Shown here: one piece after another, positions 11,090 through 61,400 of the stretch
How the letters are laid out: each line of letters opens with the position of its first letter
Position numbering within the stretch: position 1 is the stretch's first letter
Source of the DNA: Hexactinellida sp. DTS-2022
Taxonomy: Eukaryota > Porifera > Hexactinellida
Length of the DNA stretch: 64,000 bases
NCBI GenBank assembly: GCA_028753945.1
Contig: JAPNXP010000014.1
Coordinates: forward strand, 62,001-126,000
Direction of reading: 5' to 3'
Made by a program: the position numbers and the translations under genes
The notes under the pieces: model-generated
Databases searched by the model: none
The model's input: only the letters and a program-made list of their open reading frames with translations
Told to the model about the DNA's origin: nothing

Positions 11090-11310
11090 CTAGAGAGATT
11101 AATCATAAAGTCACACCTCTGTAGAGAGATTAATCATAAAGTCACACCTCTATAGAGAGATTAATCATAAAGTCACACCTCTATAGAGAGATTAATCATA
11201 TATTCACACCTCTATAGAGAGATTAATCATATATTCACACCTCCATAGAGGGATTAATCATATATTCACACCTCTATAGAGGGATTAATCATATATTTAC
11301 ACCTCTATAG
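11090..11310. repeat. 31-bp minisatellite at the acceptor of the last LONP1 exon, unit A
   Basis: About seven units of AGAGATTAATCATAAAGTCA followed by CACCTCTATAG, period 31, beginning directly at the splice acceptor of the terminal exon (- strand). Units differ mainly by AAAGTC or TATTC. Counterparts: 31525-31775 (8 units), 40605-40855, 55598-55818 (7) and 62355-62605. Confidence 0.9.
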
Positions 11311-11849
11311 TGGTTCCGGAAATAAAGTTCCTATCCAACATTTGGAAAACGAATTTCACAATAACATGAATTTAAGCAAATACTAAGAATTTGATTAATT
11401 AATTAACTTAACGAACCTTTGCTAGTAAATATGGTCCAAAAACTAAGTATTTATTTATCAACAAGAACTAAACAAGTATTAATTAACCGGAACTGTTGAC
11501 GGTACACACGAGACTGTGCCTATAAATAGAACTAACCTGTGAGAGAAATCTCGCCAGTCATCGCGAGATCCGGTTTCACGGGGCGTCCGGTAGCTAGCGA
11601 CAGCAGAGAGGTAACCATGGTAACGCCAGCGGAGGGACCGTCTTTGGGAGTGGCCCCCTCCGGGACATGCAAATGCACCGCATTCCGATCGAAGTACTCC
11701 GTATCCGGGCAAACGTCAGCTATAAATAGAGGACAAAGCAATCAAATAAATTATTCTTATTTCTTTATGATAGCGATTCCCAACCGTTTAAAAATATCCG
11801 GAAAAACTAACAAACAAACAACCATCCAACAATCTAGTGTTCTCTAGTA

Positions 11850-11920
11850 GTAAGCTCGCCTTTTAGCAAGCAAATTAGTGTAAAATGCGACTTGCTATTA
11901 TGCGAACACCACTGTATGTA
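11850..11920. mobile_element. Small MITE-like fragment, inverse to 5439-5515
   Basis: Contains TAGCAAGCAAATTAGTGTAA, AATGCGACTTGCTATTATGC and GAACACCACTGTA, the reverse of the 5439 family. The same copy is fixed in the satellite-bearing intron of units B-E (about 32316, 41396, 56356 and 63146). Confidence 0.55.
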
Positions 11921-11985
11921 TAATTAGTATATAATCACGCTATTATAGCCAGGTAACAATAATTACAGTTAAGTCAAGATCTGCA

Positions 11986-14900
11986 ACTTTATAATATTGT
12001 ACGCATTTTGCGTACAATATACAGCACATTATATACAGTAGACCTTCGTTGGGATTCGAAATTTATTATATCCACTTTATAATATTGTACGCATTTTGCG
12101 TACAATATACAGCACATTATATACAGTGGACCTTCGTTGAGATTCGAAATTCATTATATCCACTTTATAATATTGTACGCATTTTGCGTACAATATACAG
12201 CACATTATATACAGTGGACCTTCGTTGAGATTCGAAATTCATTATATCCACTTTATAATATTGTACGCATTTTGCGTACAATATACAGCACATTATATAC
12301 AGTAGACCTTCGTTGGGATTCGAAATTCATTATATCCACTTTATAATATTGTACGCATTTTGCGTACAATATACAGCACATTATATACAGTAGACCTTCG
12401 TTGGGATTCGAAATTCATTATATCCACTTTATAATATTGTACGCATTTTGCGTACAATATACAGCACATTATATACAGTAGACCTTCGTTGGGATTCGAA
12501 ATTTATTATATCCACTTTATAATATTGTACGCATTTTGCGTACAATATACAGCACATTATATACAGTAGACCTTCGTTGGGATTCGAAATTCATTATATC
12601 CACTTTATAATATTGTACGCATTTTGCGTACAATATACAGCACATTATATACAGTAGACCTTCGTTGAGATTCGAAATTCATTATATCCACTTTATAATA
12701 TTGTACGCATTTTGCGTACAATATACAGCACATTATATACAGTGGACCTTCGTTGAGATTCGAAATTCATTATATCCACTTTATAATATTGTACGCATTT
12801 TGCGTACAATATACAGCACATTATATACAGTAGTCCTTCGTTGGGATTCGAAATTCATTATATCCACTTTATAATATTGTACGCATTTTGCGTACAATAT
12901 ACAGCACATTATATACAGTAGACCTTCGTTGAGAAACGAAATTCATTATATCCACTTTATAATATTGTACGCATTTTGCGTACAATATACAGCACATTAT
13001 ATACAGTGGACCTTCGTTGAGATTCGAAATTCATTATATCCACTTTATAATATTGTACGCATTTTGCGTACAATATACAGCACATTATATACAGTAGACC
13101 TTCGATAAGATTCGAAATTCATTATATCCACTTTATAATATTGTACGCATTTTGCGTACAATATACAGCACATTATATACAGTGGACCTTCGTTGGGATT
13201 CGAAATTCATTATATCCACTTTATAATATTGTACGCATTTTGCGTACAATATACAGCACATTATATACAGTGGACCTTCGTTGAGATTCGAAATTCATTA
13301 TATCCACTTTATAATATTGTACGCATTTTGCGTACAATATACAGCACATTATATACAGTAGACCTTCGTTGGGATTCGAAATTCATTATATCCACTTTAT
13401 AATATTGTACGCATTTTGCGTACAATGTACAGCACATTATATACAGTGGACCTTCGTTGAGATTCGAAATTCATTATATCCACTTTATAATATTGTACGC
13501 ATTTTGCGTACAATATACAGCACATTATATACAGTAGACCTTCGTTGGGATTCGAAATTCATTATATCCACTTTATAATATTGTACGCATTTTGCGTACA
13601 ATATACAGCACATTATATACAGTGGACCTTCGTTGAGATTCGAAATTCATTATATCCACTTTATAATATTGTACGCATTTTGCGTACAATATACAGCACA
13701 TTATATACAGTAGACCGTCGTAGAGATTAGAAATTCATTATATCCACTTTATAATATTGTACGCATTTTGCGTACAATGTACAGCACATTATATACAGTG
13801 GACCTTCGTTGAGATTCGAAATTCATTATATCCACTTTATAATATTGTACGCATTTTGCGTACAATATACAGCACATTATATACAGTGGACCTTCGTTGA
13901 GATTCGAAATTCATTATATCCACTTTATAATATTGTACGCATTTTGCGTACAATATACAGCACATTATATACAGTAGACCTTCGTTGGGATTCGAAATTC
14001 ATTATATCCACTTTATAATATTGTACGCATTTTGCGTACAATATACAGCACATTATATACAGTAGACCGTCGTTGAGATTCGAAATTCATTATATCCACT
14101 TTATAATATTGTACGCATTTTGCGTACAATGTACAGCACATTATATACAGTGGACCTTCGTTGAGATTCGAAATTCATTATATCCACTTTATAATATTGT
14201 ACGCATTTTGCGTACAATATACAGCACATTATATACAGTAGACCTTCGTTGAGATTCGAAATTCATTATATCCACTTTATAATATTGTACGCATTTTGCG
14301 TACAATATACAGCACATTATTTACAGTGGACCTTCGTTGGGATTCGAAATTTATTATATCCACTTTATAATATTGTACGCATTTTGCGTACAATATACAG
14401 CACATTATATACAGTGGACCTTTGTTGAGATTCGAAATTCATTATATCCACTTTATAATATTGTACGCATTTTGCGTACAATATACAGCACATTATATAC
14501 AGTAGACCTTCGTTGAGATTCGAAATTCATTATATCCACTTTATAATATTGTACGCATTTTGCGTACAATATACAGCACATTATATACAGTGGACCTTCG
14601 TTGAGATTCGAAATTCATTATATCCACTTTATAATATTGTACGCATTTTGCGTACAATATACAGCACATTATATACAGTAGACCTTCGATAAGAATCGAA
14701 ATTCATTATATCCACTTTATAATATTGTACGCATTTTGCGTACAATATACTGCACATTATATACAGTGGACCTTCGTTGAGATTCGAAATTCATTATATC
14801 CACTTTATAATATTGTACGCATTTTGCGTACAATATACAGCACATTATATACAGTAGACCTTCGTTGGGATTCGAAATTCATTATATCCACTTTATAATA

Positions 14901-17900
14901 TTGTACGCATTTTGCGTACAATGTACAGCACATTATATACAGTGGACCTTCGTTGAGATTCGAAATTTATTATATCCACTTTATAATATTGTACGCATTT
15001 TGCGTACAATATACAGCACATTATATACAGTAGACCTTCGTTGGGATTCGAAATTCATTATATCCACTTTATAATATTGTACGCATTTTGCGTACAATAT
15101 ACAGCACATTATATACAGTGGACCTTCGTTGAGATTCGAAATTCATTATATCCACTTTATAATATTGTACGCATTTTGCGTACAATATACAGCACATTAT
15201 ATACAGTAGACCGTCGTTGAGATTAGAAATTCATTATATCCACTTTATAATATTGTACGCATTTTGCGTACAATGTACAGCACATTATTTACAGTGGACC
15301 TTCGTTGGGATTCGAAATTTATTATATCCACTTTATAATATTGTACGCATTTTGCGTACAATATACAGTACATTATATACAGTAGACCTTCGTTGGGATT
15401 CGAAATTCATTATATCCACTTTATAATATTGTACGCATTTTGCGTACAATATACAGCACATTATTTACAGTGGACCTTCGTTGGGATTCGAAATTTATTA
15501 TATCCACTTTATAATATTGTACGCATTTTGCGTACAATATACAGCACATTATATACAGTGGACCTTCGTTGAGATTCGAAATTCATTATATCCACTTTAT
15601 AATATTGTACGCATTTTGCGTACAATATACAGCACATTATATACAGTGGACCTTCGTTGAGATTCGAAATTCATTATATCCACTTTATAATATTGTACGC
15701 ATTTTGCGTACAATATACAGCACATTATATACAGTAGACCTTCGTTGAGATTCGAAATTCATTATATCCACTTTATAATATTGTACGCATTTTGCGTACA
15801 ATATACAGCACATTATTTACAGTGGACCTTCGTTGGGATTCGAAATTTATTATATCCACTTTATAATATTGTACGCATTTTGCGTACAATATACAGCACA
15901 TTATATACAGTGGACCTTCGTTGAGATTCGAAATTCATTATATCCACTTTATAATATTGTACGCATTTTGCGTACAATATACAGCACATTATATACAGTA
16001 GACCGTCGTTGAGAAAAGAAATTCATTATATCCACTTTATAATATTGTACGCATTTTGCGTACAATATACAGCACATTATATACAGTGGACCTTCGTTGA
16101 GATTCGAAATTCATTATATCCACTTTATAATATTGTACGCATTTTGCGTACAATGTACAGCACATTATATACAGTGGACCTTCGTTGAGATTCGAAATTC
16201 ATTATATCCACTTTATAATATTGTACGCATTTTGCGTACAATATACAGTACATTATATACAGTAGACCTTCGTTGGGATTCGAAATTCATTATATCCACT
16301 TTATAATATTGTACGCATTTTGCGTACAATATACAGCACATTATATACAGTGGACCTTCGTTGAGATTCGAAATTCATTATATCCACTTTATAATATTGT
16401 ACGCATTTTGCGTACAATATACAGCACATTATATACAGTGGACCTTCGTTGAGATTAGAAATTCATTATATCCACTTTATAATATTGTACGCATTTTGCG
16501 TACAATATACAGCACATTATATACAGTAGACCTTCGTTGGGATTCGAAATTCATTATATCCACTTTATAATATTGTACGCATTTTGCGTACAATGTACAG
16601 CACATTATATACAGTGGACCTTCGTTGAGATTCGAAATTCATTATATCCACTTTATAATATTGTACGCATTTTGCGTACAATATACAGCACATTATATAC
16701 AGTAGACCTTCGTTGGGATTCGAAATTCATTATATCCACTTTATAATATTGTACGCATTTTGCGTACAATATACAGCACATTATATACAGTGGACCTTCG
16801 TTGAGATTCGAAATTCATTATATCCACTTTATAATATTGTACGCATTTTGCGTACAATATACAGCACATTATATACAGTGGACCTTCGTTGAGATTAGAA
16901 ATTCAATATATCCACTTTATAATATTGTACGCATTTTGCGTACAATATACAGCACATTATATACAGTAGACCGTCGTTGAGATTAGAAATTCAATATATC
17001 CACTTTATAATATTGTACGCATTTTGCGTACAATGTACAGCACATTATTTACAGTGGACCTTCGTTGGGATTCGAAATTTATTATATCCACTTTATAATA
17101 TTGTACGCATTTTGCGTACAATATACAGCACATTATATACAGTGGACCTTCGTTGAGATTCGAAATTCATTATATCCACTTTATAATATTGTACGCATTT
17201 TGCGTACAATATACAGCACATTATTTACAGTGGACCTTCGTTGGGATTCGAAATTTATTATATCCACTTTATAATATTGTACGCATTTTGCGTACAATAT
17301 ACAGCACATTATATACAGTGGACCTTTGTTGAGATTCGAAATTCATTATATCCACTTTATAATATTGTACGCATTTTGCGTACAATATACAGCACATTAT
17401 ATACAGTAGACCTTCGTTGAGATTCGAAATTCATTATATCCACTTTATAATATTGTACGCATTTTGCGTACAATATACAGCACATTATATACAGTGGACC
17501 TTCGTTGAGATTCGAAATTCATTATATCCACTTTATAATATTGTACGCATTTTGCGTACAATATACAGCACATTATATACAGTAGTCCTTCGTTGGGATT
17601 CGAAATTCATTATATCCACTTTATAATATTGTACGCATTTTGCGTACAATATACAGCACATTATATACAGTGGACCTTCGTTGAGATTCGAAATTCATTA
17701 TATCCACTTTATAATATTGTACGCATTTTGCGTACAATATACAGCACATTATATACAGTAGACCTTCGTTGGGATTCGAAATTCATTATATCCACTTTAT
17801 AATATTGTACGCATTTTGCGTACAATGTACAGCACATTATATACAGTGGACCTTCGTTGAGATTCGAAATTCATTATATCCACTTTATAATATTGTACGC

Positions 17901-20900
17901 ATTTTGCGTACAATATACAGCACATTATATACAGTAGTCCTTCGTTGGGATTCGAAATTCATTATATCCACTTTATAATATTGTACGCATTTTGCGTACA
18001 ATGTACAGCACATTATATACAGTGGACCTTCGTTGAGATTCGAAATTCATTATATCCACTTTATAATATTGTACGCATTTTGCGTACAATATACAGCACA
18101 TTATATACAGTAGACCTTCGTTGGGATTCGAAATTCATTATATCCACTTTATAATATTGTACGCATTTTGCGTACAATGTACAGCACATTATATACAGTG
18201 GACCTTCGTTGAGATTCGAAATTCATTATATCCACTTTATAATATTGTACGCATTTTGCGTACAATATACAGCACATTATATACAGTAGTCCTTCGTTGG
18301 GATTCGAAATTCATTATATCCACTTTATAATATTGTACGCATTTTGCGTACAATATACAGCACATTATATACAGTGGACCTTCGTTGAGATTCGAAATTC
18401 ATTATATCCACTTTATAATATTGTACGCATTTTGCGTACAATATACAGCACATTATATACAGTAGACCTTCGATAAGATTCGAAATTCATTATATCCACT
18501 TTATAATATTGTACGCATTTTGCGTACAATATACAGCACATTATTTACAGTGGACCTTCGTTGGGATTCGAAATTTATTATATCCACTTTATAATATTGT
18601 ACGCATTTTGCGTACAATATACAGCACATTATATACAGTGGACCTTCGTTGGGATTCGAAATTCATTATATCCACTTTATAATATTGTACGCATTTTGCG
18701 TACAATATACAGCACATTATTTACAGTGGACCTTCGTTGGGATTCGAAATTTATTATATCCACTTTATAATATTGTACGCATTTTGCGTACAATATACAG
18801 CACATTATATACAGTAGACCTTCGTTGAGATTCGAAATTCATTATATCCACTTTATAATATTGTACGCATTTTGCGTACAATATACAGCACATTATTTAC
18901 AGTGGACCTTCGTTGGGATTCGAAATTTATTATATCCACTTTATAATATTGTACGCATTTTGCGTACAATATACAGCACATTATATACAGTGGACCTTCG
19001 TTGGGATTCGAAATTCATTATATCCACTTTATAATATTGTACGCATTTTGCGTACAATATACAGCACATTATATACAGTAGACCTTCGTTGAGATTCGAA
19101 ATTCATTATATCCACTTTATAATATTGTACGCATTTTGCGTACAATATACAGCACATTATTTACAGTGGACCTTCGTTGGGATTCGAAATTTATTATATC
19201 CACTTTATAATATTGTACGCATTTTGCGTACAATATACAGCACATTATTTACAGTGGACCTTCGTTGGGATTCGAAATTCATTATATCCACTTTATAATA
19301 TTGTACGCATTTTGCGTACAATATACAGCACATTATATACAGTAGACCTTCGTTGAGATTCGAAATTCATTATATCCACTTTATAATATTGTACGCATTT
19401 TGCGTACAATATACAGCACATTATATACAGTGGACCTTCGTTGAGATTCGAAATTCATTATATCCACTTTATAATATTGTACGCATTTTGCGTACAATAT
19501 ACAGCACATTATATACAGTAGACCTTCGTTGAGAAACGAAATTTATTATATCCACTTTATAATATTGTACGCATTTTGCGTACAATATACAGCACATTAT
19601 ATACAGTAGACCTTCGTTGAGATTCGAAATTCATTATATCCACTTTATAATATTGTACGCATTTTGCGTACAATATACAGCACATTATTTACAGTGGACC
19701 TTCGTTGGGATTCGAAATTTATTATATCCACTTTATAATATTGTACGCATTTTGCGTACAATATACAGCACATTATATACAGTGGACCTTCGTTGAGATT
19801 CGAAATTCATTATATCCACTTTATAATATTGTACGCATTTTGCGTACAATATACAGCACATTATATACAGTAGACCTTCGTTGAGATTCGAAATTCATTA
19901 TATCCACTTTATAATATTGTACGCATTTTGCGTACAATATACAGCACATTATATACAGTAGACCTTCGTTGAGATTCGAAATTCATTATATCCACTTTAT
20001 AATATTGTACGCATTTTGCGTACAATATACAGCACATTATATACAGTGGACCTTCGTTGAGATTCGAAATTCATTATATCCACTTTATAATATTGTACGC
20101 ATTTTGCGTACAATATACAGCACATTATATACAGTAGACCGTCGTTGAGATTAGAAATTCATTATATCCACTTTATAATATTGTACGCATTTTGCGTACA
20201 ATGTACAGCACATTATATACAGTGGACCTTCGTTGAGATTCGAAATTTATTATATCCACTTTATAATATTGTACGCATTTTGCGTACAATATACAGCACA
20301 TTATATACAGTAGACCTTCGTTGAGATTCGAAATTCATTATATCCACTTTATAATATTGTACGCATTTTGCGTACAATATACAGCACATTATTTACAGTG
20401 GACCTTCGTTGGGATTCGAAATTTATTATATCCACTTTATAATATTGTACGCATTTTGCGTACAATATACAGCACATTATATACAGTGGACCTTCGTTGG
20501 GATTCGAAATTCATTATATCCACTTTATAATATTGTACGCATTTTGCGTACAATATACAGCACATTATATACAGTAGACCTTCGTTGAGATTCGAAATTC
20601 ATTATATCCACTTTATAATATTGTACGCATTTTGCGTACAATATACAGCACATTATATACAGTGGACCTTCGTTGAGATTCGAAATTCATTATATCCACT
20701 TTATAATATTGTACGCATTTTGCGTACAATATACAGCACATTATATACAGTAGACCTTCGTTGAAAACGAAATTCATTATATCCACTTTATAATATTGTA
20801 CGCATTTTGCGTACAATATACAGCACATTATTTACAGTGGACCTTCGTTGGGATTCGAAATTTATTATATCCACTTTATAATATTGTACGCATTTTGCGT

Positions 20901-23900
20901 ACAATATACAGCACATTATTTACAGTAGACCTTCGTTGAGATTCGAAATTCATTATATCCACTTTATAATATTGTACGCATTTTGCGTACAATATACAGC
21001 ACATTATATACAGTAGACCTTCGTTGAGAAACGAAATTCATTATATCCACTTTATAATATTGTACGCATTTTGCGTACAATATACAGCACATTATATACA
21101 GTGGACCTTCGTTGAGATTCGAAATTCATTATATCCACTTTATAATATTGTACGCATTTTGCGTACAATATACAGCACATTATATACAGTAGACCTTCGT
21201 TGAGATTCGAAATTCATTATATCCACTTTATAATATTGTACGCATTTTGCGTACAATATACAGCACATTATTTACAGTAGACCTTCGTTGGGATTCGAAA
21301 TTCATTATATCCACTTTATAATATTGTACGCATTTTGCGTACAATATACAGCACATTATATACAGTAGACCTTCGTTGAGATTCGAAATTCATTATATCC
21401 ACTTTATAATATTGTACGCATTTTGCGTACAATATACAGCACATTATTTACAGTAGACCTTCGTTGGGATTCGAAATTCATTATATCCACTTTATAATAT
21501 TGTACGCATTTTGCGTACAATATACAGCACATTATATACAGTGGACCTTCGTTGGGATTCGAAATTTATTATATCTACTTTATAATATTGTACGCATTTT
21601 GCGTACAATATACAGCACATTATATACAGTAGACCTTCGTTGGGATTCGAAATTTATTATATCTACTTTATAATATTGTACGCATTTTGCGTACAATATA
21701 CAGCACATTATATACAGTAGACCTTCGTTGGGATTCGAAATTTATTATATCCACTTTATAATATTGTACGCATTTTGCGTACAATATACAGCACATTATA
21801 TACAGTGGACCTTCGTTGGGATTCGAAATTTATTATATCTACTTTATAATATTGTACGCATTTTGCGTACAATATACAGCACATTATATACAGTAGACCT
21901 TCGTTGGGATTCGAAATTTATTATATCTACTTTATAATATTGTACGCATTTTGCGTACAATATACAGCACATTATATACAGTAGACCTTCGTTGGGATTC
22001 GAAATTTATTATATCTACTTTATAATATTGTACGCATTTTGCGTACAATATACAGCACATTATATACAGTAGACCTTCGTTGAGATTCGAAATTCATTAT
22101 ATCCACTTTATAATATTGTACGCATTTTGCGTACAATATACAGCACATTATATACAGTAGACCTTCGTTGGGATTCGAAATTTATTATATCTACTTTATA
22201 ATATTGTACGCATTTTGCGTACAATATATAGCACATTATATACAGTAGACCTTCGTTGAGATTCGAAATTCATTATATCCACTTTATAATATTGTACGCA
22301 TTTTGCGTACAATATACAGCACATTATTTACAGTAGACCTTCGTTGGGATTCGAAATTCATTATATCCACTTTATAATATTGTACGCATTTTGCGTACAA
22401 TATACAGCACATTATATACAGTAGACCTTCGTTGGGATTCGAAATTTATTATATCTACTTTATAATATTGTACGCATTTTGCGTACAATATACAGCACAT
22501 TATATACAGTAGACCTTCGTTGAGATTCGAAATTCATTATATCCACTTTATAATATTGTACGCATTTTGCGTACAATATACAGCACATTATATACAGTAG
22601 ACCTTCGTTGGGATTCGAAATTTATTATATCTACTTTATAATATTGTACGCATTTTGCGTACAATATATAGCACATTATATACAGTAGACCTTCGTTGAG
22701 ATTCGAAATTCATTATATCCACTTTATAATATTGTACGCATTTTGCGTACAATATACAGCACATTATTTACAGTAGACCTTCGTTGGGATTCGAAATTCA
22801 TTATATCCACTTTATAATATTGTACGCATTTTGCGTACAATATACAGCACATTATATACAGTAGACCTTCGTTGGGATTCGAAATTTATTATATCTACTT
22901 TATAATATTGTACGCATTTTGCGTACAATATACAGCACATTATATACAGTAGACCTTCGTTGAGATTCGAAATTTATTATATCCACTTTATAATATTGTA
23001 CGCATTTTGCGTACAATATACAGCACATTATATACAGTGGACCTTCGTTGAGATTCGAAATTCATTATATCCACTTTATAATATTGTAAGCATTTTGCGT
23101 ACAATATACAGCACATTATATACAGTAGACCTTCGTTGAGATTCGAAATTCATTATATCCACTTTATAATATTGTACGCATTTTGCGTACAATATACAGC
23201 ACATTATTTACAGTAGACCTTCGTTGGGATTCGAAATTCATTATATCCACTTTATAATATTGTACGCATTTTGCGTACAATATACAGCACATTATATACA
23301 GTGGACCTTCGTTGGGATTCGAAATTTATTATATCTACTTTATAATATTGTACGCATTTTGCGTACAATATACAGCACATTATATACAGTGGACCTTCGT
23401 TGGGATTCGAAATTTATTATATCTACTTTATAATATTGTACGCATTTTGCGTACAATATACAGCACATTATATACAGTAGACCTTCGTTGGGATTCGAAA
23501 TTTATTATATCCACTTTATAATATTGTACGCATTTTGCGTACAATATACAGCACATTATATACAGTGGACCTTCGTTGGGATTCGAAATTTATTATATCC
23601 ACTTTATAATATTGTACGCATTTTGCGTACAATATACAGCACATTATATACAGTGGACCTTCGTTGGGATTCGAAATTTATTATATCTACTTTATAATAT
23701 TGTACGCATTTTGCGTACAATATACAGCACATTATATACAGTAGACCTTCGTTGGGATTCGAAATTTATTATATCTACTTTATAATATTGTACGCATTTT
23801 GCGTACAATATACAGCACATTATATACAGTAGACCTTCGTTGGGATTCGAAATTTATTATATCTACTTTATAATATTGTACGCATTTTGCGTACAATATA

Positions 23901-26900
23901 CAGCACATTATATACAGTAGACCTTCGTTGAGATTCGAAATTCATTATATCCACTTTATAATATTGTACGCATTTTGCGTACAATATACAGCACATTATA
24001 TACAGTAGACCTTCGTTGGGATTCGAAATTTATTATATCTACTTTATAATATTGTACGCATTTTGCGTACAATATATAGCACATTATATACAGTAGACCT
24101 TCGTTGAGATTCGAAATTCATTATATCCACTTTATAATATTGTACGCATTTTGCGTACAATATACAGCACATTATTTACAGTAGACCTTCGTTGGGATTC
24201 GAAATTCATTATATCCACTTTATAATATTGTACGCATTTTGCGTACAATATACAGCACATTATATACAGTAGACCTTCGTTGGGATTCGAAATTTATTAT
24301 ATCTACTTTATAATATTGTACGCATTTTGCGTACAATATACAGCACATTATATACAGTAGACCTTCGTTGAGATTCGAAATTCATTATATCCACTTTATA
24401 ATATTGTACGCATTTTGCGTACAATATACAGCACATTATATACAGTAGACCTTCGTTGGGATTCGAAATTTATTATATCTACTTTATAATATTGTACGCA
24501 TTTTGCGTACAATATATAGCACATTATATACAGTAGACCTTCGTTGAGATTCGAAATTCATTATATCCACTTTATAATATTGTACGCATTTTGCGTACAA
24601 TATACAGCACATTATTTACAGTAGACCTTCGTTGGGATTCGAAATTCATTATATCCACTTTATAATATTGTACGCATTTTGCGTACAATATACAGCACAT
24701 TATATACAGTAGACCTTCGTTGGGATTCGAAATTTATTATATCTACTTTATAATATTGTACGCATTTTGCGTACAATATACAGCACATTATATACAGTAG
24801 ACCTTCGTTGAGATTCGAAATTTATTATATCCACTTTATAATATTGTACGCATTTTGCGTACAATATACAGCACATTATATACAGTGGACCTTCGTTGAG
24901 ATTCGAAATTCATTATATCCACTTTATAATATTGTACGCATTTTGCGTACAATATACAGCACATTATATACAGTAGACCTTCGTTGAGATTCGAAATTCA
25001 TTATATCCACTTTATAATATTGTACGCATTTTGCGTACAATATACAGCACATTATTTACAGTAGACCTTCGTTGGGATTCGAAATTCATTATATCCACTT
25101 TATAATATTGTACGCATTTTGCGTACAATATACAGCACATTATATACAGTGGACCTTCGTTGGGATTCGAAATTTATTATATCTACTTTATAATATTGTA
25201 CGCATTTTGCGTACAATATACAGCACATTATATACAGTGGACCTTCGTTGGGATTCGAAATTTATTATATCTACTTTATAATATTGTACGCATTTTGCGT
25301 ACAATATACAGCACATTATATACAGTAGACCTTCGTTGGGATTCGAAATTTATTATATCCACTTTATAATATTGTACGCATTTTGCGTACAATATACAGC
25401 ACATTATATACAGTGGACCTTCGTTGGGATTCGAAATTTATTATATCCACTTTATAATATTGTACGCATTTTGCGTACAATATACAGCACATTATATACA
25501 GTAGACCTTCGTTGAGATTCGAAATTCATTATATCCACTTTATAATATTGTACGCATTTTGCGTACAATATACAGCACATTATTTACAGTAGACCTTCGT
25601 TGGGATTCGAAATTCATTATATCCACTTTATAATATTGTACGCATTTTGCGTACAATATACAGCACATTATATACAGTGGACCTTCGTTGGGATTCGAAA
25701 TTTATTATATCTACTTTATAATATTGTACGCATTTTGCGTACAATATACAGCACATTATATACAGTGGACCTTCGTTGGGATTCGAAATTTATTATATCT
25801 ACTTTATAATATTGTACGCATTTTGCGTACAATATACAGCACATTATATACAGTGGACCTTCGTTGGGATTCGAAATTCATTATATCCACTTTATAATAT
25901 TGTACGCATTTTGCGTACAATATACAGCACATTATATACAGTGGACCTTCGTTGGGATTCGAAATTTATTATATCTACTTTATAATATTGTACGCATTTT
26001 GCGTACAATATACAGCACATTATATACAGTGGACCTTCGTTGGGATTCGAAATTTATTATATCTACTTTATAATATTGTACGCATTTTGCGTACAATATA
26101 CAGCACATTATATACAGTAGACCTTCGTTGGGATTCGAAATTTATTATATCCACTTTATAATATTGTACGCATTTTGCGTACAATATACAGCACATTATA
26201 TACAGTAGACCTTCGTTGGGATTCGAAATTTATTATATCTACTTTATAATATTGTACGCATTTTGCGTACAATATACAGCACATTATATACAGTAGACCT
26301 TCGTTGGGATTCGAAATTTATTATATCCACTTTATAATATTGTACGCATTTTGCGTACAATATACAGCACATTATATACAGTGGACCTTCGTTGGGATTC
26401 GAAATTTATTATATCTACTTTATAATATTGTACGCATTTTGCGTACAATATACAGCACATTATATACAGTAGACCTTCGTTGGGATTCGAAATTTATTAT
26501 ATCTACTTTATAATATTGTACGCATTTTGCGTACAATATACAGCACATTATATACAGTAGACCTTCGTTGGGATTCGAAATTTATTATATCTACTTTATA
26601 ATATTGTACGCATTTTGCGTACAATATACAGCACATTATATACAGTAGACCTTCGTTGAGATTCGAAATTCATTATATCCACTTTATAATATTGTACGCA
26701 TTTTGCGTACAATATACAGCACATTATATACAGTAGACCTTCGTTGGGATTCGAAATTTATTATATCTACTTTATAATATTGTACGCATTTTGCGTACAA
26801 TATATAGCACATTATATACAGTAGACCTTCGTTGAGATTCGAAATTCATTATATCCACTTTATAATATTGTACGCATTTTGCGTACAATATACAGCACAT

Positions 26901-30845: not shown

Positions 30846-30945
30846 CCTTTTTCATTTTCCCCATGAACTTATCCCTCAGCTGCTCCTTATCGTCCTTCTC
30901 GAGTCCCAATTCCTTCCGTATAATTCTCAGCTGTTCCATGAGGAG

Positions 30946-31126
30946 GTGTCACATCCGAATCCTCGATTTGTAGCCTGAGAGGGTGTTTGGCCAATAGGAT
31001 AGTTCCTATTTTCTGTAGCTGGTTTAGCGACACAATAATTGTGTCGGTGAACTTCAGGATTATAAGTTCGGTTCTAACACCATTCAGCGAGTAAACTGAT
31101 TGGTTGGATTCCGGCGGGAGGGACAT
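30946..31126 (-). pseudogene. PSMG3: PSMG3 5' part (codons 1-60), unit B, fused to LONP1 of unit A
   Basis: Begins with the same ATG TCC CTC start as the intact gene (31126) and runs through KIGTILLAKHPLRLQIEDSD. At 30946 it leaves PSMG3 and enters a LONP1 exon in a different frame, stopping at 30887 after about 19 foreign residues (PHGTAENYTEGIGTREGR). The conserved LLGKDD to KIW half is missing, so it cannot make PAC3. Its upstream region would be the promoter for the truncated Lon that follows. Confidence 0.85.
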
Positions 31127-47500: not shown

Positions 47501-50500
47501 GAAATTCATTATATCCACTTTATAATATTGTACGCATTTTGCGTACAATATACAGCACATTATATACAGTAGACCTTCGTTGAGATTCGAAATTCATTAT
47601 ATCCACTTTATAATATTGTACGCATTTTGCGTACAATATACAGCACATTATTTACAGTGGACCTTCGTTGGGATTCGAAATTTATTATATCCACTTTATA
47701 ATATTGTACGCATTTTGCGTACAATATACAGCACATTATATACAGTAGACCTTCGTTGGGATTCGAAATTCATTATATCCACTTTATAATATTGTACGCA
47801 TTTTGCGTACAATATACAGCACATTATATACAGTGGACCTTCGTTGAGATTCGAAATTCATTATATCCACTTTATAATATTGTACGCATTTTGCGTACAA
47901 TATACAGCACATTATATACAGTGGACCTTCGTTGAGATTCGAAATTCATTATATCCACTTTATAATATTGTACGCATTTTGCGTACAATATACAGCACAT
48001 TATATACAGTAGACCGTCGTTGAGATTCGAAATTTATTATATCCACTTTATAATATTGTACGCATTTTGCGTACAATATACAGCACATTATATACAGTGG
48101 ACCTTCGTTGAGATTCGAAATTCATTATATCCACTTTATAATATTGTACGCATTTTGCGTACAATATACAGCACATTATATACAGTAGACCTTCGATAAG
48201 ATTCGAAATTCATTATATCCACTTTATAATATTGTACGCATTTTGCGTACAATATACAGCACATTATATACAGTGGACCTTCGTTGAGATTCGAAATTCA
48301 TTATATCCACTTTATAATATTGTACGCATTTTGCGTACAATATACAGCACATTATATACAGTAGACCTTCGTTGGGATTCGAAATTCATTATATCCACTT
48401 TATAATATTGTACGCATTTTGCGTACAATGTACAGCACATAATATACAGTGGACCTTCGTTGAGATTCGAAATTCATTATATCCACTTTATAATATTGTA
48501 CGCATTTTGCGTACAATATACAGCACATTATATACAGTAGACCTTCGTTGGGATTCGAAATTCATTATATCCACTTTATAATATTGTACGCATTTTGCGT
48601 ACAATGTACAGCACATTATTTACAGTAGACCTTCGTTGGGATTCGAAATTCATTATATCCACTTTATAATATTGTACGCATTTTGCGTACAATATACAGC
48701 ACATTATATACAGTAGACCGTCGTTGAGATTAGAAATTCATTATATCCACTTTATAATATTGTACGCATTTTGCGTACAATATACAGCACATTATATACA
48801 GTAGACCTTCGTTGGGATTCGAAATTCATTATATCCACTTTATAATATTGTACGCATTTTGCGTACAATATACAGCACATTATATACAGTAGACCGTCGT
48901 TGAGATTCGAAATTGATTATATCCACTTTATAATATTGTACGCATTTTGCGTACAATATACAGCACATTATATACAGTGGACCTTTGTTGAGATTCGAAA
49001 TTCATTATATCCACTTTATAATATTGTACGCATTTTGCGTACAATATACAGCACATTATATACAGTAGACCTTCGTTGAGATTCGAAATTTATTATATCC
49101 ACTTTATAATATTGTACGCATTTTGCGTACAATATACAGCACATTATTTACAGTGGACCTTCGTTGGGATTCGAAATTTATTATATCCACTTTATAATAT
49201 TGTACGCATTTTGCGTACAATATACAGCACATTATATACAGTGGACCTTCGTTGAGATTCGAAATTCATTATATCCACTTTATAATATTGTACGCATTTT
49301 GCGTACAATATACAGCACATTATATACAGTGGACCTTCGTTGAGATTCGAAATTCATTATATCCACTTTATAATATTGTACGCATTTTGCGTACAATGTA
49401 CAGCACATTATATACAGTGGACCTTCGTTGAGATTCGAAATTCATTATATCCACTTTATAATATTGTACGCATTTTGCGTACAATATACAGCACATTATA
49501 TACAGTAGACCTTCGTTGAGATTCGAAATTCATTATATCCACTTTATAATATTGTACGCATTTTGCGTACAATATACAGCACATTATTTACAGTGGACCT
49601 TCGTTGGGATTCGAAATTTATTATATCCACTTTATAATATTGTACGCATTTTGCGTACAATATACAGCACATTATATACAGTAGACCTTCGTTGGGATTC
49701 GAAATTCATTATATCCACTTTATAATATTGTACGCATTTTGCGTACAATATACAGCACATTATATACAGTGGACCTTCGTTGAGATTCGAAATTCATTAT
49801 ATCCACTTTATAATATTGTACGCATTTTGCGTACAATATACAGCACATTATATACAGTGGACCTTCGTTGAGATTCGAAATTCATTATATCCACTTTATA
49901 ATATTGTACGCATTTTGCGTACAATATACAGCACATTATATACAGTAGACCGTCGTTGAGATTCGAAATTTATTATATCCACTTTATAATATTGTACGCA
50001 TTTTGCGTACAATATACAGCACATTATATACAGTAGACCTTCGTTGGGATTCGAAATTCATTATGTCCACTTTATAATATTGTACGCATTTTGCGTACAA
50101 TATACAGCACATTATATACAGTAGACCTTCGTTGGGATTCGAAATTCATTATATCCACTTTATAATATTGTACGCATTTTGCGTACAATATACTGCACAT
50201 TATATACAGTAGACCGTCGTTGAGATTAGAAATTCATTATATCCACTTTATAATATTGTACGCATTTTGCGTACAATGTACAGCACATTATATACAGTGG
50301 ACCTTCGTTGAGATTCGAAATTCATTATATCCACTTTATAATATTGTACGCATTTTGCGTACAATATACAGCACATTATATACAGTGGACCTTCGTTGAG
50401 ATTCGAAATTCATTATATCCACTTTATAATATTGTACGCATTTTGCGTACAATATACAGCACATTATATACAGTAGACCGTCGTTGAGATTCGAAATTGA

Positions 50501-51706
50501 TTATATCCACTTTATAATATTGTACGCATTTTGCGTACAATATACAGCACATTATATACAGTAGACCTTCGTTGGGATTCGAAATTCATTATATCCACTT
50601 TATAATATTGTACGCATTTTGCGTACAATATACAGCACATTATATACAGTGGACCTTTGTTGAGATTCGAAATTCATTATATCCACTTTATAATATTGTA
50701 CGCATTTTGCGTACAATATACAGCACATTATATACAGTAGACCTTCGTTGAGATTCGAAATTTATTATATCCACTTTATAATATTGTACGCATTTTGCGT
50801 ACAATATACAGCACATTATATACAGTGGACCTTCGTTGAGATTCGAAATTCATTATATCCACTTTATAATATTGTACGCATTTTGCGTACAATATACAGC
50901 ACATTATATACAGTGGACCTTTGTTGAGATTCGAAATTCATTATATCCACTTTATAATATTGTACGCATTTTGCGTACAATATACAGCACATTATATACA
51001 GTAGACCTTCGTTGAGATTCGAAATTTATTATATCCACTTTATAATATTGTACGCATTTTGCGTACAATATACAGCACATTATTTACAGTGGACCTTCGT
51101 TGGGATTCGAAATTTATTATATCCACTTTATAATATTGTACGCATTTTGCGTACAATATACAGCACATTATATACAGTGGACCTTCGTTGAGATTCGAAA
51201 TTCATTATATCCACTTTATAATATTGTACGCATTTTGCGTACAATATACAGCACATTATATACAGTAGACCTTCGTTGGGATTCGAAATTTATTATATCT
51301 ACTTTATAATATTGTACGCATTTTGCGTACAATATACAGCACATTATATACAGTAGACCTTCGTTGGGATTCGAAATTTATTATATCTACTTTATAATAT
51401 TGTACGCATTTTGCGTACAATATACAGCACATTATATACAGTAGACCTTCGTTGAGATTCGAAATTCATTATATCCACTTTATAATATTGTACGCATTTT
51501 GCGTACAATATACAGCACATTATATACAGTAGACCTTCGTTGGGATTCGAAATTTATTATATCTACTTTATAATATTGTACGCATTTTGCGTACAATATA
51601 TAGCACATTATATACAGTAGACCTTCGTTGAGATTCGAAATTCATTATATCCACTTTATAATATTGTACGCATTTTGCGTACAATATACAGCACATTATT
51701 TACAGT
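41534..51706. repeat. 88-bp satellite array, unit C (about 116 monomers)
   Basis: The left end is as in unit B and the right end carries the ATATCTACTT variants seen in unit A. Blocks resembling B's array recur shifted by 9080 and then 9344 bp (three extra monomers). At 46.3-49.7 kb the variant string containing ACATAATATACAG (46415 and 48439 region) repeats at 2024 bp (23 monomers), later 1936 bp (22). Confidence 0.97.
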
Positions 51707-52537
51707 GTTACGACTACAAGCTCTATAATGCATACTTAACAGCTGATAGTTTTATCACCTTTTGAGAGGGAAGATATGAATATCTACTTAGATATTATAA
51801 CTTGTTCCTAGATACAGTATTTTCTATCTCCCTGCCAAATTTCAAGCCTGTAGCTCTTACCAGTTCCTCAATCAATTCTGACCAAACAAACAAACATACA
51901 AAAAAATAAAAAAATCATTGTGATTTAATATATAACTGTGCACATACCAGTGTCCATTATGAATCTCCTCGCGACGCTTAGCGCTATCTGTCCCGACTCT
52001 TTCATGACGTCACCGAGCTTGCCGGTCAGCTTGAGGTCCCCAGTCCCCTTATCCGACCTCCTAATTGGAACTGACTCTATGTAGAGGGTGGACCCCCCCA
52101 TTGAGGTCCACGCGAGACCCATGACCACCCCCGGAGGTGTCAAGTGGTACAGGCGATCTGAGGGGAAGACTGGCTTGCCAACGTAGTCGGACAGGTTGTC
52201 AGAAGTTATCTGTAACGGAACTGTATTATGTACCATGGATATATAAGGGTAGGGGAATATACAAATTCGGGCGTTAGTGTTGTAGTTAGAAAAGGTATAA
52301 TGCATAGTCCAACAATACTAAAGCTATTCCATAGAGCCTCGTTAGTAGGAACACCAGGGGACCGTCAAAATGTGTACGCCTTATCCGGAATTCGTATTAA
52401 CTAATATCATTTACATTTGTACTGAAAAGGCTTTTAAGGGGACTGAAATAGTGTTCATATTACCCGTGTTCGTATTAGCGAGGTTCTACTGTATTCCCAT
52501 TTGAATATTGGTCCCATTGCCTTACCCCAATGTGTCC

Positions 52538-52758
52538 CTATACAAGTGACAGGGTATATAGGATACCCATACATAGGGGGTATATAGGGTACCTATACAA
52601 GTGACAGGGTATATAGGATACCCATACATAGGGGGTATATAGGGTACCTATACAAGTGACAGGGTATATAGGATACCCATACATAGGGGGTATATAGGGT
52701 ACCCATACAAGTGACAGGGTATATAGGGTCCCCATACAAAAGGGACTATATATAGGAT
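52538..52758. repeat. 55-bp VNTR, four units, unit C
   Basis: CTATACAAGTGACAGGGTAT starts at 52538, 52593 and 52648, with a variant (CCATACAAGTG) at 52703. The spacing is exactly 55. Fewer units at the matching site in A, B and D. Confidence 0.9.
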
Positions 52759-53029
52759 ACCTGTATGGGTCCGGTGTCCCCTGTCTCCACGAGGTGTCGT
52801 GCCGACTTCCGGAGTATCCGGTCCAGCTGTTTCTGCAGATTCCTAACTCCGCTTTCTCTGCAATACCGACTTATGAGGGCAGGCAGCACTGAGTCAGAGA
52901 GAGAGATCTGATTGGTCAGCACGCCGCTCTGACGTAGTGCCTCCGGGATTAAGTGGCGCCTCGCTATCTCCACCTGCGTAGCAACCATATAAGCACTCTG
53001 GAATGTGTGATAACCGTAATGCGGTATGG

Positions 53030-53070
53030 TTCGACTTTTACTTTTACTGTTCACTTTTACTGTTCACACA
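53030..53070. other. Junction between LONP1 intron (unit C) and CHD exon 15 (unit D)
   Basis: Left of here the sequence follows the LONP1 intron (AATGCGGTATGGTTC); right of it, the CHD exon end TTCACACAGCAG and its intron. Between them CTTTTACTGTTCA occurs twice in tandem (about 53041-53066), filler or templated insertion at the breakpoint. Confidence 0.8.
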
Positions 53071-53758: not shown

Positions 53759-53762
53759 TTTA

Positions 53763-54845: not shown

Positions 54846-55202
54846 TTACCAAATTTTACATTCATTAACCATCCTAACAACCAGAGGTATCTCCTTAGGA
54901 ATGTGTGATTTTAATCCCAGGAACAACACCAGTGAATACTCGGGGGGAATAATCTCGATTATTGCGCGGGCGTACAAATGTGTCGGTGTGTCGTCTTTGC
55001 CCAAAAGTGTCGCAATCGAAGGTGTCACATCCGAATCCTCGATTTGTAGCCTGAGAGGGTGTTTGGCCAATAGGATTGTTCCTATTTTCTGTAGCTGGTT
55101 TAGCGACACAATAATTGTGTCGGTGAACTTTAGGATTATAAGTTCGGTTCTAACACCATTCAGCGAGTAAACTGATTGGTTGGATTCCGGCGGGAGGGAC
55201 AT
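54846..55202 (-). CDS. PSMG3: PSMG3, unit D, second intact copy
   Basis: 118 residues, ATG at 55202 and TAA at 54846. The predicted protein is the same as unit A's. It keeps its upstream region and the 102-bp duplication after the stop. Both intact copies therefore could supply the chaperone; whether both are expressed is not visible. Confidence 0.8.
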   Translation of the reverse strand: MSLPPESNQSVYSLNGVRTELIILKFTDTIIVSLNQLQKIGTILLAKHPLRLQIEDSDVTPSIATLLGKDDTPTHLYARAIIEIIPPEYSLVLFLGLKSHIPKEIPLVVRMVNECKIW

Positions 55203-55234: not shown

Positions 55235-55266
<32 letters not shown>

Positions 55267-55412
55267 TAAACAGGATAATTGGAACTGAAACCAATTAAGA
55301 GGAGGGGACAGATTACATTTAAACGGAGTGAAAATATTTAATCAAAAATCTAAAAGATTGCTAAGTGAAAAGCGTACCAAACAACACAAACAAACAACAA
55401 CAACAACAACAA

Positions 55413-58400
55413 CTAAAATGCAATACCAAACACTTCTCTGTATTCTGACACGAAATGTATTTCCAGACCTGCCTTAATAGAATCCGACAGATCATAGAAA
55501 TCGCTTTGATTGGCTGACGGCAGAATTATCCGCTTAACACCTTCTCTCTTAGCCGCGATTAATTTCTCTTTTATCCCACCGACCGGAAGTACCTTTCCTA
55601 GAGAGATTAATCATAAAGTCACACCTCTGTAGAGAGATTAATCATAAAGTCACACCTCTATAGAGAGATTAATCATAAAGTCACACCTCTATAGAGAGAT
55701 TAATCATATATTCACACCTCTATAGAGAGATTAATCATATATTCACACCTCCATAGAGGGATTAATCATATATTCACACCTCTATAGAGGGATTAATCAT
55801 ATATTTACACCTCTATAGTGGTTCCGGAAATAAAGTTCCTATCCAACATTTGGAAAACGAATTTCACAATAACATGAATTTAAGCAAATACTAAGAATTT
55901 GATTAATTAATTAACTTAACGAACCTTTGCTAGTAAATATGGTCCAAAAACTAAGTATTTATTTATCAACAAGAACTAAACAAGTATTAATTAACCGGAA
56001 CTGTTGACGGTACACACGAGACTGTGCCTATAAATAGAACTAACCTGTGAGAGAAATCTCGCCAGTCATCGCGAGATCCGGTTTCACGGGGCGTCCGGTA
56101 GCTAGCGACAGCAGAGAGGTAACCATGGTAACGCCAGCGGAGGGACCGTCTTTGGGAGTGGCCCCCTCCGGGACATGCAAATGCACCGCATTCCGATCGA
56201 AGTACTCCGTATCCGGGCAAACGTCAGCTATAAATAGAGGACAAAGCAATCAAATAAATTATTCTTATTTCTTTATGATAGCGATTCCCAACCGTTTAAA
56301 AATATCCGGAAAAACTAACAAACAAACAACCATCCAACAATCTAGTGTTCTCTAGTAGTAAGCTCGCCTTTTAGCAAGCAAATTAGTGTAAAATGCGACT
56401 TGCTATTATGCGAACACCACTGTATGTATAATTAGTATATAATCACGCTATTATAGCCAGGTAACAATAATTACAGTTTAGTCAAGATCTGCAACTTTAT
56501 AATATTGTACGCATTTTGCGTACAATATACAGCACATTATATACAGTAGACCTTCGTTGGGATTCGAAATTTATTATATCCACTTTATAATATTGTACGC
56601 ATTTTGCGTACAATATACAGCACATTATATACAGTAGACCTTCGTTGGGATTCGAAATTCATTATATCCACTTTATAATATTGTACGCATTTTGCGTACA
56701 ATATACAGCACATTATATACAGTGGACCTTCGTTGAGATTCGAAATTCATTATATCCACTTTATAATATTGTACGCATTTTGCGTACAATATACAGCACA
56801 TTATTTACAGTGGACCTTCGTTGGGATTCGAAATTTATTATATCCACTTTATAATATTGTACGCATTTTGCGTACAATATACAGCACATTATTTACAGTG
56901 GACCTTCGTTGAGATTCGAAATTCATTATATCCCTTTATAATATTGTACGCATTTTGCGTACAATATACAGCACATTATATACAGTAGACCTTCGTTGAG
57001 ATTCGAAATTCATTATATCCACTTTATAATATTGTACGCATTTTGCGTACAATATACAGCACATTATATACAGTAGACCTTCGTTGAGATTCGAAATTCA
57101 TTATATCCACTTTATAATATTGTACGCATTTTGCGTACAATATACAGCACATTACATACAGTAGACCTTCGTTGGGATTCGAAATTTATTATATCCACTT
57201 TATAATATTGTACGCATTTTGCGTACAATATACAGCACATTATATACAGTAGACCTTCGTTGAGATTCGAAATTCATTATATCCCTTTATAATATTGTAC
57301 GCATTTTGCGTACAATATACAGCACATTATATACAGTAGACCTTCGTTGAGATTCGAAATTCATTATATCCACTTTATAATATTGTACGCATTTTGCGTA
57401 CAATATACAGCACATTATATACAGTAGACATTCGTTGAGATTCGAAATTCATTATATCCCTTTATAATATTGTACGCATTTTGCGTACAATATACAGCAC
57501 ATTATATACAGTAGACCTTCGTTGAGATTCGAAATTCATTATATCCACTTTATAATATTGTACGCATTTTGAGTACAATATACAGCACATTATATACAGT
57601 AGACATTCGTTGAGATTCGAAATTCATTATATCCACTTTATAATATTGTACGCATTTTGCGTACAATATACAGCACATTATATACAGTAGACATTCGTTG
57701 AGATTCGAAATTCATTATATCCACTTTATAATATTGTACGCATTTTGCGTACAATATACAGCACATTATATACAGTAGACCTTCGTTGAGATTCGAAATT
57801 CATTATATCCCTTTATAATATTGTACGCATTTTGCGTACAATATACAGCACATTATATACAGTAGACCTTCGTTGGGATTCGAAATTTATTATATCCACT
57901 TTATAATATTGTACGCATTTTGCGTACAATATACAGCACATTATATACAGTAGACCTTCGTTGAGATTCGAAATTCATTATATCCCTTTATAATATTGTA
58001 CGCATTTTGCGTACAATATACAGCACATTATATACAGTAGACCTTCGTTGAGATTCGAAATTCATTATATCCACTTTATAATATTGTACGCATTTTGCGT
58101 ACAATATACAGCACATTATATACAGTAGACCTTCGTTGAGATTCGAAATTCATTATATCCCTTTATAATATTGTACGCATTTTGCGTACAATATACAGCA
58201 CATTATATACAGTAGACCTTCGTTGAGATTCGAAATTCATTATATCCACTTTATAATATTGTACGCATTTTGAGTACAATATACAGCACATTATATACAG
58301 TAGACCTTCGTTGGGATTCGAAATTTATTAGATCCACTTTATAATATTGTACGCATTTTGCGTACAATATACAGCACATTATATACAGTAGACCTTCGTT

Positions 58401-61400
58401 GGGATTCGAAATTTATTATATCCACTTTATAATATTGTACGCATTTTGCGTACAATATACAGCACATTATATACAGTGTTACGACTACAAGCTCTATAAT
58501 ATAATGCATACTTAACAGATGATAGTTTTATCACCTTTTGAGAGGGAAGATATGAATATCTACTTAGATATTAGAACTTGTTCCTAGATACAGTATTTTC
58601 TATCTCCCTGCCAAATTTCAAGCCTGTAGCTCTTTCCTCAATCAATTCTGACCAAACAAACAAACAAACAAAAAAATAAAAAAATCATTGTGATTTAATA
58701 TATAACTGTGCACATACCAGTGTCCATTATGAATCTCCTCGCGACGCTTAGCGCTATCTGTCCCGACTCTTTCATGACGTCACCGAGCTTGCCGGTCAGC
58801 TTGAGGTCCCCAGTCCCCTTATCCGACCTCCTAATTGGAACTGACTCTATGTAGAGGGTGGAGCCCCCCATCGAGGTCCATGCGAGACCCATGACCACCC
58901 CCGGAGGTGTCAAGTGGTACAGACGATCTGACGGGAAGACGGGCTTGCCAACGTAGTCGGACAGGTTGTCAGAAGTTATCTGTAACGGAACTGTATTATG
59001 TACCATGGATAAATAAGGGATAGGGGAATATACAAATTCGGGCTTTATTGTTGTGGTTAGAAAAGCTATAATGCATAGTCCAACAATACTAAAGCTATTC
59101 CATAGAGCCTCGTTAGTAGGAATGTACACCAAGGGGACCGTCAAAATGTGTACGCCTTATCCGGAATTCGTATAAACCAATATGATTTGTATTGAAAAGG
59201 CTTTGAAGGGGACTGAAATAGTGTTCGTATTAACAGAATTTCGTATTAGCCGTGTTCGTATTAGCGAGGTTCTACTGTATCCCCATTTGGTTAATGGACC
59301 ATTCCCTTACCCCAATGTGTCCCTATACAAGTGACAGGGCATATAGGGTCCCCATACAATAGGGACTATATATAGGGTACCCATACAAGTGACAGGGTAT
59401 ATAGGGTCCCCATACAATAGGGACTATATATAGGATACCTGTATGGGTCCGGTGTCCCCTGTCTCCACCAGGTGTCGTGCCGACTTCCGGAGTATCCGGT
59501 CCAGCTGTTTCTGCAGATTCCTAACTCCGCTTTCTCTGCAATACCGACTTATGAGGGCAGGCAGCACTGAGTCAGAGAGAGAGATCTGATTGGTCAGCAC
59601 GCCGCTCTGACGTAGTGCCTCCGGGATTAAGTGGCGCCTCGCTATCTCCACCTGCGTAGCAACCATATAAGCACTATGGAATGTGTGTATAACCGTAATG
59701 CGGTATGGTTCTACATTTACTTTGCCGACTATACTATAGTATATGGCCCAGTTCTAATTTGTTTTAAATTGCAAAAATTTCGAACAAAATAGGAAATAGT
59801 ACGACTTTCCTTTTACAATTGTAGGAACATTGATTCAAGCCTGGTTTTTATCATATTCATGGTTTAGCAACGCTAAATTCGAACTACAGTCGACTCCGCT
59901 TAATTAATTAATCGGGTCAAAATTTCACAGGATTTATAAGACGGAATTACATATTGGCTTAAATATTTTCGGATAATAGATTTCTCTGCTTAATCGGGTC
60001 AAAGTAACCTGGTCCCGAGGTGACTCTATTTCGACTGTACAGGTGACTCAATTCCCAAACATTTAATACAGTCAGTTTGACCCGATTAAGTGGAGAAATC
60101 TATTAACCGGTGGCTCTATTAAGCAGACCTGACTATAGTCCTTATTCTCATTATCCCAACTATTCCCTACTGCCCCCCCCCCCCCCTACCTTTTCCTCTG
60201 CTATGTACCCAGACACGTGTATAACTTCCATTCTATCCAGCAGCGGACCAGGGATTGTGTCGGTAACGTTTGCAGTGCCTATAAATAGAACTCTGGACAG
60301 GTCGATGGGAACATCCAGATAGTGGTCCAGGAAGTTCCTGTTCTGCTCCGGGTCCAGCAGCTCTAGGAGGGCGGAGGCCGGGTCCCCCTGGTACCCCCGA
60401 CCCAGCTTGTCGATCTCGTCAATCAGGATAAGCGGGTTCTCAGTCTGAACCTAAGTAATGGGATATAGAGAGATTACAATATGACATCAATATAAATATA
60501 AGTTATAACTGAGATTATATTAAAAGTCGAAACCGGATCAACGAACTACTGATTTTGCCGAATAATTATTCAATCGAATAATGATAGCTAAACATTCTAG
60601 ATATAATATTTTCAAACCCAATATTCAAAATGCGTTCGCCTTTTATATTGAAAAGACTTTGAAGGGCACTGAAATAGTGTTGTATTAAGTATTAACCGTG
60701 TTCCTACTAACGATATTCTACTATATCTGGTTGCACCTTGATATTAACCTGAGACTACCTAGAACTGACATAACTCTACCTATAAGCTATACACTATACA
60801 CTTATATAATTATAACCCTACCACTAATGCTACTACACTTATTACTCTACCTTTTTGAGTGCCTGCACCACCTTGCCGGGCATGGCGCCCACATAGGTGC
60901 GTCTGTGTCCCTTTATCTCCGCCACGTCCGAGAGCCCCCCCACGCTAAACCGGAAGTACTCCCGATTAAGCGCGCGGGCAATGGACCGGCCTATGGAGGT
61001 CTTGCCCACACCGGGGGGTCCGCAGAAACAGAGGATCCTCCCCTGTGTGCCCCCCCTAAGCTTGGATACCGCTATGAACTCAAGAATGCGCTTCTTTATA
61101 TCCTCTAGACCGTAATGGTCCTGTTCTAGGATAATGCTGGCTTCTGATAGGTCGAATCGCTCGTTACTGGACTGGCCCCAAGGAATGCTGGTTAGCCAAT
61201 CGAGATAGTTTCTAGTTACGCTAAATTCAGAACTTTGTGTCCAGCAGCGACAACTTAGTTAGTTCCTCCTCAAACACCTCTGCCACGTGCTCAGGGGGAG
61301 ACAGCTGGAGTAAACAACAACAGGTAAACAACAAGTAAACAACGAGTCAACAAACAAACTAACTAAAGAACTAACTAAGTAACTTACTATCGAACGAACT

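Follow-up and report, generated by a model that had tools for sequence, protein, structure and literature searches.

Exchange between satellite arrays in a predicted intron probably mixed the halves of tandem LONP1 copies in a hexactinellid sponge

In the genome assembly of Hexactinellida sp. DTS-2022 (GCA_028753945.1), arrays of an 88-bp satellite follow one another along a contig between flanks of a few recurrent types, and the question that this locus raises is how different left and right flanks came to be combined around the same repeat. The window that we analysed is the whole stretch of 64,000 nucleotides from position 62001 to 126000 of contig JAPNXP010000014.1 (here called C6), which is 5.37 Mb long and part of a genome of 112.4 Mb in 18 contigs. 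Seven arrays of the satellite, all in the same orientation, are present in the first 176 kb of C6. The window covers the whole of A, B, C, and D and the beginning of E, and F and G lie beyond it (Table 1). (S0 denotes the stretch before A, S1 to S6 the spacers between neighbouring arrays, and S7 the stretch after G.) Among the 709 monomers in these arrays, partial ends included, 64 are distinct. A preliminary description of this DNA had proposed exchange through the array. We add to it that the arrays are set in a predicted LONP1 intron, that the row continues through E, F, and G, and that a block of ~31 kb repeats at D.

Table 1 Coordinates of arrays, exons, junctions, and changes of type (window positions unless marked C6)
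Feature	Position	Strand	Details
Array A	11986-27702 (C6:73986-89702)	+	179 monomers, last partial; type I left, alpha right
Array B	32454-36731 (C6:94454-98730; end may be one base earlier)	+	49 monomers; type II left, beta right
Array C	41534-51706 (C6:103534-113706)	+	116 monomers; type II left, alpha right (recombinant type)
Array D	56494-58477 (C6:118494-120477)	+	23 monomers; type I left, beta sub-type right
Array E	63284-64000 in window; whole array C6:125284-129560	+	start only within window
Array F	C6:134581-144753		outside window
Array G	C6:149541-165082		outside window
PSMG3 (PAC3 domain match)	10347-10592; 54858-55103	-	
31-bp minisatellite, 7.1 units	11091-11310; 55599-55818		
31-bp minisatellite, 8.0 units	31526-31773; 40606-40853; 62356-62603		
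LONP1 exon, Lon_C 142-203	10908-11093; 31343-31528; 40423-40608; 55416-55601; 62173-62358	-	
LONP1 exon with motif GPSAG	11535-11717; 32003-32185; 41083-41265; 56043-56225; 62833-63015	-	left of array
LONP1 exon, start of Lon_C	27945-28217; 36967-37239; 51949-52221; 58719-58991	-	right of array
LONP1 lid exon	28631-28837; 37711-37917; 52785-52991; 59463-59669	-	
LONP1 AAA exons after A	29359-29613 + 30019-30471	-	
LONP1 AAA exons after B	38438-38692 + 39099-39551	-	
LONP1 AAA exons after D	60190-60444 + 60851-61240	-	shorter
Junction J1	53045-53060		LONP1 meets sequence from beyond PSMG3, with 16 unmatched bases at the join
Junction J2	30944-30947		LONP1 joined to inside of PSMG3; two BLAST matches overlap by 4 bp
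S1 breakpoint	29631-29632		at or just right; differences from S2 many before, none after
S3 switch	52520-52761		alpha-like to S2-like across minisatellite
Change-of-type interval in C	45933-51212		monomers 51-110; by hand from monomer lengths
Change-of-type interval in D	56846-58477		

The left flanks fall into the two types that had been described, type I at A and D and type II at B, C, and E. Specifically, 107 of 110 variable gap-free sites separate {A,D,G} from {B,C,E,F}, and the remaining three set A apart. Each of the marks by which the types had been told apart also holds, namely an intact PSMG3 with type I (the genome contains three PAC3 matches, which lie left of A, D, and G), a minisatellite of seven rather than eight units, and the donor string GTTAG as opposed to GTGAG. 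Note that the 298 bp adjoining the arrays (11688-11985 and equivalents) carry no difference between types I and II, as if homogenised, whereas the whole left flank differs at 107 of 1459 sites. On the right, the division into alpha (A and C) and beta (B and D) is borne out by 16 sites that separate {A,C,F,G} from {B,D,E}; six further sites put G with B, D, and E. The strings quoted for alpha (TATTATAACTTG, CATACAAAA, and AACACCAGG) are present in A and C, those quoted for beta (TATTAGAACTTG and AATGTACACC) are present in B and D, and the motif ACCAGT, of which beta had been said to lack a copy, occurs twice in A and C and once in B and D. All four combinations of flanks are thus present as claimed: I+alpha at A, II+beta at B, II+alpha at C, and I+beta at D. 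The right flank of D is a sub-type of beta that differs from B at 7 of 858 sites; on the left, D and G show no differences (0/1474). Outside the window, the right flank of E is that of B (0/858), the right flank of F is that of C (0/849), and G joins a type I left flank to an alpha-like right flank.

Array C illustrates the conflict between the two sides. Compared with B, it differs at 0 of 1510 sites on the left and at 31 of 836 on the right (Fisher 9e-15); compared with A, it differs at 110 of 1459 sites on the left and at 9 of 849 on the right (Fisher 7e-14). A single tree that explains both flanks had been named as the outcome that would overturn exchange, and we found that one tree fails: in an approximately unbiased (AU) test the right-flank data reject the left-flank tree (p 1.7e-4) and the left-flank data reject the right-flank tree (p 5.3e-5). 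(This test and the four-gamete test were run on five lineages, A, B, C, D, and G, with E and F omitted as duplicates of B and C; an AU test on seven copies, which also penalised arbitrary orders among identical copies, was superseded by it.) In the four-gamete test, 2675 of 4730 pairs of sites across the array failed; among pairs confined to one flank, the failures were 0 of 5995 on the left and 60 of 903 on the right. The idea that this result hangs on D alone was rejected, given that without D 963 of 4620 pairs across the array and 18 of 861 within the right flank still fail. Note that the flanks are 2-16 kb apart, so more conflict across the array than within a flank is expected from distance alone, and the excess is therefore no proof of a hotspot.

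Around the arrays lie parts of the gene for the mitochondrial Lon protease, LONP1; the genes matched in the region, syntaxin, PSMG3, and mitochondrial Lon, are eukaryotic. Minus-strand LONP1 exons flank every array on both sides. The exon to the right of each array matches Lon_C positions 1-92, the exon to the left matches 84-144, and the exon further left matches 142-203, with a lid exon further right of the array in all seven copies. The fragments are identified as LONP1 by their AAA, lid, and Lon_C domains and by PDB matches named mitochondrial Lon, the best matches of the AAA exon being chains entitled 'Lon protease homolog, mitochondrial' (E 4e-79). The motif GPSAG of the exon left of the array presumably holds the catalytic serine. 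Between the two exons that border an array, the donor (ACACTG/GTATGT) and the acceptor (TTTATAG/CTGAC) are the same in 7/7 copies, and the reading frame, as read by eye, is kept when the exons are joined. Judged from these sequence signals, the arrays lie in one predicted intron of each LONP1 copy, an intron of ~2.5-16.2 kb that is 80-97% satellite (array A makes up ~97% of a 16.2-kb intron). A dispersed element of ~155 bp also occurs in a LONP1 intron (28341-28495 and equivalents), with at least 47 matches, at least nine of them in LONP1 copies and at least 38 elsewhere.

The copies are not equally complete. Copies A, B, D, and E retain AAA, lid, and protease parts; a domain search found no AAA exons in copies C and F, where the lid and protease parts alone were found. 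In C6:1-176000 the N-terminal substrate-binding domain was not found for copies A to F, which thus fall short of complete genes, and its one match lies beside G (C6:169319-169513, profile positions 2-62 of 200), for which reason G looks like the full LONP1 gene, as far as its sequence tells. (Another Lon-like gene is present at C6:5.22 Mb.) Near 61240, the copy after D is 2 bp short in its AAA exon compared with the other copies, as expected for a decaying fragment. We counted synonymous differences among copies in five LONP1 exons; the sixth, Lon_C 142-203, was not among them, and the AAA_N exon after D, being a partial match, was left out, such that AAA_N stands for four of five copies. The counts were 14 in 453 bp for AAA_N, at most 9 in 255 bp for AAA_C, at most 5 in 207 bp for the lid, at most 7 in 273 bp for LonC1, and 2 in 183 bp for LonC2, and the sole nonsynonymous change in the five exons is in LonC1 of copy A. 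The fact that nearly all exon differences are synonymous argues that selection acted during most of the divergence of the types. The simplest course would be that types I and II and types alpha and beta were once alleles of a functional gene and had already separated when the truncated copies arose.

The truncated copies end at two junctions. J2 is common to S1, S2, S4, and S5, and there the LONP1 match ends at C6:168114; J1 is common to S3 and S6, and there the LONP1 match ends at C6:166245 and the other side matches C6:70571 onwards. We read the two as independent non-homologous duplications. Every type II flank of the stretch, of which there are four (B, C, E, and F), is attached to J2.

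The preliminary description had suggested that breakpoints be placed by strings of monomer variants. Placed in this way, they fall inside arrays C and D and not in the adjacent unique intron sequence. Monomers 1-47 of B and 1-50 of C align with 43 of 51 columns identical, whereas shuffles of C gave no more than 22 (n=100), and the same alignment of the first 47 monomers of B gave 12 of 52 with A and 9 of 58 with G. Past its B-like part, C runs to an edge of the A/G type, while B ends in a beta edge. The last seven monomers are common to A and C, and G has six of them; the longest run in 200 shuffles was five. In its interior C shares no run of more than seven monomers with A or more than six with G (runs of that length being the shared right edges), and for lack of longer runs the donor of the right half of C is not pinned down. 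Monomers 1-4 of D are the first four of G. Of the last 18 monomers of D, 12 belong to types seen in D alone, six of these monomers being 87 bp long, and its right array edge has 6 mismatches in 317 bp to B and 7 in 317 to each of A, C, and G; most of the interior monomers of D, like its right-flank sub-type, occur nowhere else on the stretch. The notion that D simply combines array G with array B was not supported by these monomers and edge mismatches. Linked monomers thus confine the change of type to the array from both sides in C and from the left side in D.

Exchange was not confined to the satellite. S1 and S2 differ at many sites up to the S1 breakpoint and are identical from 29632 to the next array (2822 bp). 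S3 differs from S2 at 31 of 836 sites before the minisatellite and at 1 of ~290 after it (Fisher 0.0015). The alpha tract beside C is thereby bounded on both sides by sequence like that of the II+beta lineage, as a conversion tract would be, and it fits conversion or a double crossover better than one crossover. In all, two changes of type lie in arrays and two in spacers. The proposal of exchange through the array stands for C and, unless D is an assembly join, for D, but not as an exclusive route, given the changes in the spacers and the failing pairs within the right flank; with exchange in the spacers too, these data do not mark the satellite as a hotspot.

The row of arrays contains a large repeat. 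The block from B to S3 recurs almost exactly as E to S6 (~31 kb); the junction between the first copy and the second falls at array D, which alone is I+beta. B and E are identical (0/4277), as are S3 and S6 (0/4787), and C and F differ at 3 of 10173 sites, all within 20 bp. (These three differences, at array positions 7363-7382, turn one monomer variant into that of its neighbour, much like a short conversion.) In a global alignment, S5 differs from S2 by two SNPs and by the length of the 31-bp minisatellite, which is 217 bp (seven units) longer in S5 (C6 ~133442) and is the largest difference between the blocks. A count of 19 S2/S5 mismatches from BLAST was rejected, the global alignment having shown the remainder to be misaligned repeat units. 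D may be the product of a crossover or a join made in assembly: a crossover of array G with an unseen array on the other chromosome would give this order of blocks, and so would a false join of two haplotypes inside the satellite. Because the four-gamete conflict persists without D, the finding of exchange does not need D.

Taken together, we think it likely that partial duplications and exchange between misaligned satellite arrays mixed the halves of LONP1. At the start, one LONP1 intron would have held a long array of the 88-bp satellite. Part of the gene would have been duplicated in tandem twice (junctions J1 and J2), which would have produced extra 3' gene fragments, each with a satellite intron, and the fragments would have carried old lineages, a (I+alpha) and b (II+beta), that we infer to be allelic. 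Misaligned arrays would then, if the events took this order, have recombined by unequal crossover or conversion to give C (II+alpha) and D (I+beta), and the exchange at D, presumably a crossover between homologues that left D as a real molecule, would have duplicated the ~31-kb block, with B to S3 giving rise to E to S6. The view of the preliminary description that exchange or conversion in the satellite is the simplest reading is supported by the failure of one tree and by the changes of type inside arrays.

Three other explanations bear on parts of this account. The assembler may have written two haplotypes in series, A-B-C and then E-F-G, with a false join inside D, a possibility that we take seriously even though we judge it improbable. 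The I+beta combination of D would then be an artefact; such a join touches D and the repeated block only, and not the exchange in C. Consistent with it are the recurrence of B and C as E and F, equal in length and with 0 and 3 differences, the location of the junction inside a satellite array, and the private monomers and sub-type of D. However, the 217-bp minisatellite difference and the few SNPs between the blocks make a double count of one molecule unlikely, and two alleles would have to be near-identical over ~27 kb and yet, immediately beyond, carry dozens of differences (S1 compared with S4, up to 29631). Moreover, recombinant array C and the test without D are independent of D.

It is also doubtful that ordinary allelic recombination in a single LONP1 intron preceded the duplications, which would then have sampled types already mixed. 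The restriction of exon differences to synonymous ones, with the one exception in copy A, is what alleles of a working gene would display and agrees with this idea; but since type II flanks are all on J2, the II+alpha combination of C arose on a chromosome that already bore J2, and B and C share not only J2 and the whole II flank but also a string of 47-50 monomers. Finally, an account with no exchange, in which the tandem copies share one tree and mutate at unequal rates, might be entertained given that one tree could hold the main splits once D is set aside ({A,G} against {B,C} on the left and B by itself on the right). This explanation was rejected by the tree and four-gamete tests and is exceedingly improbable: C is at odds with it in being close to B on the left and to A on the right, as are the pairs that fail without D. 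Going further than exchange between misaligned arrays, one could imagine, as a long shot, that the satellite intron is a standing recombination hinge and that the 5'-truncated copies archive 3' halves, kept intact as they exchange with the full-length gene across the array, in which case LONP1 alleles would be continually reassembled from halves.

Unequal crossing over and gene conversion are known in satellite and tandem-gene arrays, for which there are reviews (such as PMC8122249 and PMC7214746). What we observe resembles these processes in that the copies here are in tandem, types change inside the repeat, and blocks are duplicated inside arrays (the longest repeated runs are of 15, 12, and 15 monomers in A, C, and G, as opposed to at most five in 30 shuffles of each). 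The locus differs in that the repeat is inside a predicted intron, so that exchange swaps gene halves. The Drosophila genes kl-3 and kl-5 are reported to have giant introns that contain satellite DNA (PMC6508621), and LONP1 is like them in being a protein-coding gene with satellite DNA in an intron; however, the predicted introns here are 2.5-16 kb long, and six of the seven belong to truncated tandem copies. False duplication is reported in assemblies (PMC9516828), and the near-identical repeated block with equal array lengths is like it, whereas the small differences between blocks and the type conflict that persists without D are unlike it. Among the literature matches listed, none concerned an intronic satellite of a conserved gene exchanging the halves of tandem fragments. 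Thus, the process is known and the setting is unusual. The locus is a natural example of changes of type that strings of monomer variants can locate within a satellite, and one in which, with the satellite in a predicted intron of a conserved gene, exchange would reshuffle gene halves and copy gene fragments. It also carries a warning that at such arrays an assembler could join haplotypes.

Related and neighbouring repeats were seen elsewhere. Among the matches listed, the 88-bp family is also present on the minus strand of C11 (15335300-15374454) and of C15 (~104-143 kb) at ~90-93% identity, and around the C11 array dispersed repeats alone match the LONP1 stretch. C6 itself starts inside an array of a 212-bp satellite (86 copies, 99% matches, C6:1-18318); no telomere-like runs were found in the C6 stretch read for the five motifs tried. 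Left of array A, the window contains a 29-bp minisatellite of 50 units that are 97% alike (3027-4483).
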